Source: an uncultured bacterium (GTDB lineage Bacteria; Verrucomicrobiota; Kiritimatiellia; CAIKKV01; CAIYGI01). Taken from it: DNA of 32,263 bases. Below the pieces are notes generated by a model, which ran no database searches, was not told the origin of the DNA, and worked only from the letters and a program-made list of their open reading frames with translations. The number at the start of each line of letters is the position of its first letter. The first letter of the stretch is position 1. This document shows, piece after piece, positions 11,906-14,900 of the stretch. Both the position numbers and the translations under genes were made by a program. The stretch lies in contig CAIYGI010000041.1 of assembly GCA_903925685.1 (NCBI GenBank), positions 1 through 32,263 of the forward strand, given 5' to 3'.

Positions 11906-14900
11906 ATGCGAACCCCCGAAACCAAGAATGCACCTCAAACCATGAACTCCTGGGAAAACAGCAGCAACTTCGGTGTGAACCGGCTTGACCCGCGCGCGTG
12001 GTTCACGCCGTATGCGGATACGGACCGCGCCCGCAGCATGCGGGCGGGCGATTCCACGCTGGTGCAGTCGCTCAACGGCGCATGGAAATTCCACTACGCC
12101 ACGCAGCCGCTGACGGCGCCGGAGGGGTTCGAGAAGCCGGCGTTCGACGATTCCGCGTGGGACACGCTCCCCGTGCCTTCGTGCTGGCAGATGCTTGGCT
12201 ACGGCCGTCCGCACTACACCAACGTGCAATATCCGTTCCCGGTCGATCCGCCACGCGTGCCGACCGAGAACCCGGCCGGCAGCTATCGCCGCACTTTTGT
12301 GGTGCCGGAGGCGTGGGATGGAATGCAGATCCGCCTGCGGTTCGACGGCGTGGATTCCTGTTTCGAGGTCCATCTCAACGGCCACTTCGTCGGCATGGGC
12401 ATGGGCAGCCGCCTGCCGCACGAGTTTGATGTCACAAAGCGCGTGAAGCCGGGCGTGAACGTGCTGGCGGTGCGCGTCTACCAGTGGTCCGCGGGGTCGT
12501 ACCTCGAGGACCAGGACATGTGGTGGCTCTCCGGCATCTTTCGCGAAGTGTCGCTCGTGGCTCTGCCGACCGTGCAGATCGCGGACCTCTACATCGTGAC
12601 CGATCTGGATGAACAATGCCGCGACGCGGTTCTGCGCGTCGAGACGGCGGTTGCCAACCTGGGCGGCGATGACGCCGCCGGGCATCTGGAACTCCGCTTG
12701 TGCGACGACGCGGGCGTGAAAGTCGCCTCCGCGAAGACCGCTGTGGGTCTTGCTGCCGGAGCCGCGGCCGCGGTCGCGCTGAAGATGAAGGTCGCCGCGC
12801 CGCGCAAGTGGTCGGCCGAGGATCCCTACCTGTACCAGCTCGTCGCGACGCTGCGCGATGCCGACGGCAACGTGCGCATGGCCGTGCCGCAACGCGTGGG
12901 TTTCCGCAAGGTCGAGATCTGCGACGGCCAGATCCGCGTCAACGGCCGGAAGGTTTACTTCCGCGGCGTGAACCGGCACGAGCACCATCCCGATTTCGGC
13001 CGCGCCGTGCCGCTCGAAACCATGGTCCGGGACATCCTGATCATGAAACGGCACAACATCAACGCCGTGCGCACCAGCCATTACCCGGCCGATCCGCGCT
13101 GGTACGACCTGTGTGATCAGTACGGACTCTACCTCATTGATGAGTGCGATCTGGAGACCCACGGTTTTAGCGGATCCGACTGGAGCTGGAGCGCCAATCC
13201 GCTCGACGATCCGCGGTGGGAGGCTCCCATCGTGGACCGCATGCGGCGCACGGTGATCCGCGATCGCAACCACCCCAGCGTGGCGATCTGGTCGCTCGGC
13301 AACGAGGCCGGCTTCGGCTGCAACCACCGGAAGATGAAGTCCGCCGCCAACGCGATCGATCCGACCCGCCCGATCCACTACGAGGGCGACTACGGCATGG
13401 AGGTCGCCGACATGTACAGCCGCATGTATCCCTCGCTGGAGGAGTGCCAACGCATCAGCAAGGCCGAGGGCGACTTCAAGATGCATAGCGGCCGGATCCT
13501 GCCGTATGACCGCTACGCCCACAAGCCGTTCATCCTCTGCGAATATGCCCATGCCATGGGCAACGGCCCCGGCAATCTCAAGGAGTACTGGGATCTCATC
13601 TACCGCGAACCGCGTTTCGCCGGCGCGTTCGTCTGGGAGTGGATTGACCACGGCATCCGCGCCGTGCGCGGACCGGATGGGCTGGCCCGCGTGGCGGGCG
13701 AGCGTGGTTCAAGGTTCAGGGTCCAGGGTTCAGGCAACGGGTGCCTTGCGGTGACCGCAGATACGAAAAACGAAATGGCAGGATTACCTGAACCCCGAAC
13801 CCTGCCCCCTGACACCTTCTTCGCCTACGGCGGCGACTTCGGCGACCAGCCGAACGACGGCAACTTCGTGATCGACGGACTGATCTTCCCGGACCGCACG
13901 CCTTCGCCGGCGATGGCGGAACTCAAGCAGATGCTGGCGCCGGTGCTGACCGAGTCCTTGAACGCCGCCAAGGGGCAGGTGCGGATCACAAACCGCCACA
14001 TGTTCTCCGGCCTCGACCTGCTGGCGGCGCACTGGAAACTGCTGGCCGACGGCGAGGTCGTGCAGAACGGCGCGCTGCCGCTGCCCAGGATTGCGCCGTT
14101 CCACAGCGCCACCGTGACGGTGCCGTTCGAACTGCCGCGCGGCGACGGGCGCGAATTCGTGCTTGAGATCGACTACACCCTGAAGTCGGACACACCGTGG
14201 GCGGCGCAAGGCCACGAGGTGGCGTTTGCGCAGGTTCCGGTGCGTGCGGCCAGGCCGGTGGCGGTCGGTCCCGCGATCGTTGGCAGCCGTCACCTGCCGC
14301 AGGTTGCCGAGACGCGTGGCGCGATCACGATCGTTTCGCCTTCGTTTGAGCTGGTGTTCTGCAAGGCGACGGGCATCCTGCGGCACTGGAACGTCAACGG
14401 CCAGCCGCTGCTGGTGCGCGGTCCGGTCCCGAACTTTTGGCGCGCGCCGACCGACAACGACGGCGGCAAGCGCGGCTGCGGCGTACAGAAGGAATGGCGC
14501 GAACACGGCCTGCATGCCCTGCAGCACCACGTGGAAAGCGTGGAAGTGGTTGCGGCCGACGACGGCGCGTCGCGCGTGGTCGTGAAGACGCGTGTGGCCG
14601 GTCCGGTCGTAAAGGTCGGGATCGCCTGTGAACAGGTCTACACCGTGCAACCGGACGGCACGCTGACGCTGGAATTCAGCGGTGCGCCGTGGGGCGAATG
14701 GAAGACAATCTGGCCGCGCATCGGACTGCAACTGCGCCTGCCATCCGCGTTGTCGAACATGTGCTGGTACGGGCGGGGACCGGGCGAGAGCTATGGCGAC
14801 AGCCGGAACGGCCAGCGTCTGGGACGCTGGCGCGCGACGGTGGACGAGCTGTTCACCAGCTACATCTTCCCGCAGGAGAACGGCAACCACACGGAGACGC

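Follow-up and report, generated by a model that had tools for sequence, protein, structure and literature searches.

The window, a stretch of DNA of 32,263 nucleotides, encodes a GH2 beta-galactosidase (LacZ) in which a block of additional residues, specified by inverted-repeat DNA, interrupts an otherwise conserved sequence. This raises the questions of what kind of DNA the block consists of, where it came from, and how the enzyme accommodates it. In the reading that we consider likely, the insert is a non-autonomous heptamer hairpin repeat that is tolerated in a surface loop.

The LacZ gene and its additional loop

The coordinates of the gene and of the parts of the insert are given in Table 1. 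The ORF finder placed the start of the LacZ frame at position 11837, and the frame used here is stop-free over its whole length. The GH2/LacZ Pfam domains follow each other in order, and the invariant residues of the family are retained, including E452 and E531, so that the sequence-only reading was right in describing the frame as kept and the catalytic residues as intact. The loop between WEWID and GGDFG comprises 60 amino acids in the window LacZ and 16 amino acids in nearly all homologues (92 parsed loci), the exceptions being loops of 11, 13, 15, and 44 amino acids. The earlier estimate of about 45 extra residues is thereby borne out, one further additional residue being located immediately ahead of the insert. 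The homologues compared included those of Firmicutes, Actinobacteria, Planctomycetota, Lentisphaerae, and others, and named records neighboring the window LacZ include Planctomycetota and Lentisphaerae genomes. At loci skipped by the parsing script, the loop was checked by eye where it was in view and agreed with the others except in L083 and L149. The best relative in the PDB, 9m0e, aligns to LacZ residues 1 to 577 and 622 to 1071, leaving only the insert unaligned.

A loop of the same length without palindromic DNA was not found in close homologues. Two distant homologues have insertions in the same loop (about 19 additional amino acids in L083 and a loop of 44 amino acids in L181), both of which are non-palindromic, and the loop is therefore insertion-tolerant. 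At the lacZ site, the comparison with close relatives was limited to the gene of a same-genus genome (G001, locus L082), there being no close uninterrupted lacZ to compare. Being a pseudogene, with altered frames and a large deletion in its center, the G001 lacZ was rejected as an empty insertion site.

An AlphaFold model of LacZ based on 33 homologues had a mean pLDDT of 87.9, and the PDB structures closest to it are LacZ structures. In this model the insert leaves the fold between two strands as a disordered loop, with pLDDT values of <50 for residues 585 to 617. In sequence, the insert falls between conserved blocks that we take to lie near active-site residues, corresponding to E. coli LacZ W568 before it and F601 and N604 after it. 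Apart from the insert, LacZ is, as judged from its sequence and predicted fold, an intact enzyme. The disordered loop of ~43 residues is probably near-neutral for activity, which we infer from the intact fold and the disorder of the insert in the prediction.

Table 1. Features of the LacZ gene and its insert (window coordinates)
Feature	Position	Strand	Description
LacZ (GH2 beta-galactosidase) reading frame	11951..15169	+	1072 aa from W of WENSSNF
In-frame LacZ insert	13682..13810	+	Residues 578-620, ~43 aa, 129 bp; absent in nearly all of ~100 homologues
GC-rich hairpin GCTGGCCCGCGTGGCGGGCGAGC	13681..13703	+	Within insert, non-heptameric; from RNA fold
Left arm	13706..13734	+	Heptamers GGTTCAA GGTTCAG GGTCCAG GGTTCAG G; from sequence; genome-wide copies
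Spacer	13735..13786	.	52 nt, between arms
Right arm	13787..13815	-	Inverted heptamers CCTGAAC CCCGAAC CCTGCCC CCTGACA C; copies in other genomes

Heptamer arrays in the insert and in the genome

The insert had been described as a near-perfect inverted repeat around a 52-base loop. The inverted repeat exceeds what chance would produce: with 3 mismatches allowed, the motif GGGTTCAGGGTTCAGG matches the window five times, always in the insert (0.26 expected; 0/100 shuffles), and the predicted RNA fold of the insert has a z score of -3.6, with 0 of 200 shuffles equally stable. The wording "near-perfect" is too strong, as the 29-nt arms are 79% complementary. The automatic register separates them by 46 nt, and the 52-base loop is correct when the arms are read as the heptamer arrays of Table 1. 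The tandem 7-bp arrays in the arms and the upstream GC-rich hairpin had both been missed. No convincing second copy of this hairpin was identified in a genome search, and the spacer had no convincing match elsewhere in the genome or the order; only the arms match other places.

The unit length has consequences for coding. The G-rich strand of the arrays is stop-free and, because 7 and 3 are coprime, specifies the same cyclic heptapeptide, VQGSGFR, in every frame; this is also the heptapeptide encoded by the left arm. The entry of an array into a gene therefore needs little luck beyond the right total length. The opposite, antisense strand contains one TGA in each frame per 21 bp. In the LacZ right arm, the unit CCCGAAC places CGA where the usual unit has an in-frame TGA stop, and other antisense genic cases have CGA (RluD-like and GH78) or CAA (MmeI-like) at this position.

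The search for further copies of the arms, proposed in the sequence-only reading, revealed dispersed copies between genes and inside other genes. With GGGTTCAGGGTTCAGG as a 16-mer and ≤2 mismatches, 60 matches were found in the genome versus 3 for a reversed control. In a census of 739 kb of genome stretches, made with a home-made gene caller, there were 53.4 period-7 arrays per 100 kb of intergenic DNA versus 0.6 to 7.4 for the other periods from 4 to 13 and for 15, and 18 for period 14 (a multiple of 7); since many of these stretches came from contigs known to hold repeats, the densities may be high, whereas the contrast between periods is much less affected and the genome-wide pattern-search counts are free of this bias. 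Many unit families are found in the one genome, including GTTCAGG, GGTGGAA, GTCAGAA, GTGAACA, and GATGAAC. An inverted partner (13 to 14 of 14 positions, within 600 bp) was present for 34 of 122 intergenic arrays versus 4 of 122 in the control, and 22 inverted heptamer elements were identified, with arms of 14 to 32 bp and spacers of 4 to 388. Most arrays are single-sided, and the inverted element is thus the minority form. Variant units are mirrored between both arms at L196:5027-5478 and at C294. Of 62 arrays, 24 are located ≤10 bp past a stop codon, against 13% expected. The repeats are accordingly dispersed, over-represented head-to-tail units that form convergent inverted pairs and lie mainly between genes near gene 3' ends, all of which characterize heptanucleotide repeats.

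Other repeats were seen in the same genome. The window has an intergenic array of ~13 CACTACT/CACCACT-type units at 3211-3305. Two further dispersed palindromic repeats were of the CTTAGTCGGTTACRCTTAGTCG type (L188:16110-16186 and L227:11779-11870) and of the TTGACGCAAAGGCG type (L194:8391-8480 and L227:12136-12224).

Within the class (146 genomes), members of the GTTCAGG family are distributed patchily, with 144 matches in the same-genus genome and 0 to 2 in many others. The order of units in triplets with a single variant is non-random: among the matches listed, the series GTTCAGG-GTTCGGG-GTTCAGG and the other two one-variant orders occur in a ratio of 49:19:9, the p-value being indicative, as neighboring matches within the same array are non-independent. 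The same series was found in at least 14 genomes among the matches listed, and exact copies of it occur at five further places in the window's genome. In addition, the LacZ right arm has copies of 23 to 27 nt (96% to 100% identical) in G001 and in G011, a genome of another genus. The preferred unit series and these copies of the arm favor copying over independent slippage. Local birth of the element, by slippage expansion within lacZ and formation of the palindrome in place, would fit a loop that tolerates other insertions, and slippage is quoted as a hypothesis for heptamer excess in an earlier study (PMC4692102). However, the LacZ units belong to a dispersed family with right-arm copies in other genomes, and the homologous loops contain, at the protein level, no seed resembling the insert sequence; we regard local birth as highly unlikely.

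Mobilization by a transposase, as for REP/REPIN sequences moved by RAYT or for a MITE, would have inserted the palindrome as a unit. The inverted pairs with their spacers are REPIN-like, and such movement would agree with the recurrence of nearly identical unit series at scattered locations, including those in other genera. However, Y1 transposase counts do not, by eye, track the repeats across the 146 genomes: two Y1 domains are present in the window's genome, none in a genome with 35 matches, and 27 in a genome with one match. The contexts inspected by eye also revealed no target-site duplication, no conserved spacer, and no conserved ends, and neither a defined element end nor a mobilizing enzyme was found. 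A RAYT/Y1 transposase was rejected as the driver on the basis of the Y1 counts, and a transposase-mobilized palindrome seems unlikely.

In-frame arrays in other enzymes

The hairpin repeat in LacZ has parallels in other conserved enzymes. Two of them are encoded in the window's genome: in an MmeI-like enzyme, heptamer arrays lie within a stretch of ~60 extra residues ahead of the DPACGSGNF motif, and LpxB is longer by a net 13 residues where an array is located. In other genomes of the order, MnmG of G012 has ~62 extra residues, and the RluD-like protein of G008 contains an in-frame inverted element (VGVQGSG ... NPEPRTPNPDP) with a LacZ-like anatomy, its congeners being 17 to 18 residues shorter. 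Of the RluD-like proteins, only that of G008 counts as a clean insertion; the one in G011 was rejected because its congeners in G012, G013, G009, and G010 are equal in length at that place. A GH78 with an array in its gene is a weaker case, as is a family-A DNA polymerase (L228) with two array peptides, which was recognized from peptide and Pfam match only, without an aligned homologue.

Two further frames contain arrays. The frame of a membrane protein at L227:8967-10493 includes an in-frame heptamer palindrome with 27-bp arms and runs into a second array (to 10526); this protein may be a gene fragment cut at the array, as it ends inside the array and is without a Pfam match. At L191:15912-16009, a heptamer array of ~98 bp is stop-free in a frame that links a VWA-domain protein with the secreted-looking part behind it, and the two may be genes fused across the array.

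These parallels also bear on the quality of the assembly. It is a draft of 347 contigs, and repeats are typical points of misjoining, so that an assembly or binning artefact was considered. However, the sequences on either side of the insert form a single LacZ without a change of frame, the insert is of small size, and similar in-frame inserts occur in independent genomes, making an artefact extremely improbable.

The most telling in-frame case is MnmG. In the genus of G008 to G013, the site either is bracketed by two TGTTCCACGTGGAACA palindromes or adjoins them, and the array families differ by species but are always in frame. Within each of the clades G009/G010 and G011/G013, left and right arms form pairs (scores of 9 to 21), and arms from different clades do not (5 to 8), in four of five species. 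In G012 the arms mismatch: the left arm has been taken over by GTTCAGG units, and the right arm is still compatible with the left arms found in G011 and G013. In G005 to G007 the palindromes are present without arrays. The MnmG site thus shows turnover of the unit family with matching arms in most sister species.

The two TGTTCCACGTGGAACA palindromes, which we take to resemble parS, are found in frame in mnmG (gidA) of relatives (L267 to L271 and L289 to L291), where they encode FHVEQ/FHVEH. Of the 146 class genomes, 40 have a close pair of them, one pair per genome, and its location in mnmG was confirmed in the loci read. Such a pair also occurs at G000:C282:5936-5990 (L292), where placement in mnmG was not confirmed.

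Origin of the hairpins and relation to known repeats

According to the explanation that we favor, the insert is one copy of a dispersed element in which a degenerate 7-bp unit (here GGTTCAG) forms a pair of convergent arrays separated by a variable spacer; new arrays would form, and existing ones would change, 7 bp at a time. Each arm would serve as the template for copying or correcting the other, most likely through slippage and template switching at a replication hairpin, and units may reach new sites by some copying route. Most copies are intergenic, often directly past stop codons, and copies in genes would survive only if their total length preserves the frame, they introduce no stop, and the site is a surface loop, a linker, or a terminus. 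More tentatively, the hairpins could be a self-maintaining class of repeats, with arms actively rewritten by each other and a unit family that is replaceable at one site without loss of the host gene's frame, that recurrently gives rise to new disordered loops in core enzymes throughout the class.

The sequence-only reading had assigned the element to an unrelated repeat family. A wholly new palindrome family it is not: its unit is a tandem heptamer, which places it in the known class of heptanucleotide repeats. The heptamer repeats of Xanthomonas and Nostoc (GGGAATC/GGGGAYT) are likewise degenerate tandem 7-bp units, dispersed and mostly intergenic near the 3' end of the upstream gene, and Xanthomonas has 70 to 75 convergent inverted pairs and a share of 7% to 11% of its repeats that overlaps genes (PMC4692102). 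Unit length, inverted pairs, and position are thus shared, whereas the unit sequence differs and many families occur per genome here; for the Xanthomonas and Nostoc repeats, the accessible text describes no insert that is kept in frame within the fold of a conserved enzyme (PMC4692102). In Beggiatoaceae and cyanobacteria, TAACTGA and STRRs are heptamer direct repeats of phylogenetically patchy occurrence (PMC4679880). They share the heptamer unit and the patchiness with the LacZ element but are for the most part direct repeats in intergenic DNA ahead of gene starts, with only a single indirect repeat in the Maribeggiatoa genome (PMC4679880).

In Geobacter metallireducens, heptanucleotides form arrays of four or five units, both inside genes and in the regions between them, and its MTYCTGA class, arranged in facing pairs, is close to TTCTGAC units found in the window's organism; as far as the accessible part of that description goes, it contains no protein-level comparison (PMC2700814). 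The Geobacter arrays were interpreted there as regulatory RNA or regulator sites (PMC2700814). A regulatory element, either a global-regulator site or a transcript hairpin, that lies by chance inside lacZ would also agree with the clustering of arrays past stop codons and with the predicted stability of the RNA hairpin. It is nevertheless very unlikely, given that many unit families without relation to each other are present in the same manner in a single genome and that the distribution in the class is patchy.

The parallel drawn earlier to the palindromic elements of Rickettsia holds for behavior, both kinds being dispersed palindromic repeats that are mostly intergenic and sometimes in frame in conserved enzymes whose catalytic residues are retained. 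The Rickettsia elements are built from a conserved sequence and not from arrays of heptamers. They are ~105 to 146 bp long and lie in frame in genes for conserved proteins, of which gmk was tested and found active with altered affinity (PMC2229807). An in-frame palindrome in a conserved protein is what LacZ and the G008 RluD-like protein have in common with them, a likeness in behavior in another lineage.

Heptamer arrays and coding palindromes were each known before, and it is their combination that is new; in an incomplete search of the literature, we found no report uniting heptamer repeats with in-frame protein palindromes. Heptanucleotide repeats are widespread and unexplained in bacteria, and the in-frame copies in LacZ, MnmG, the RluD-like protein, and the restriction enzyme provide natural, testable cases, the MnmG series of sister species allowing a direct test of arm copying. 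The protein-coding palindromes of Rickettsia extend to another lineage and another type of repeat, and the LacZ insert shows repeat DNA adding new stretches to working proteins.
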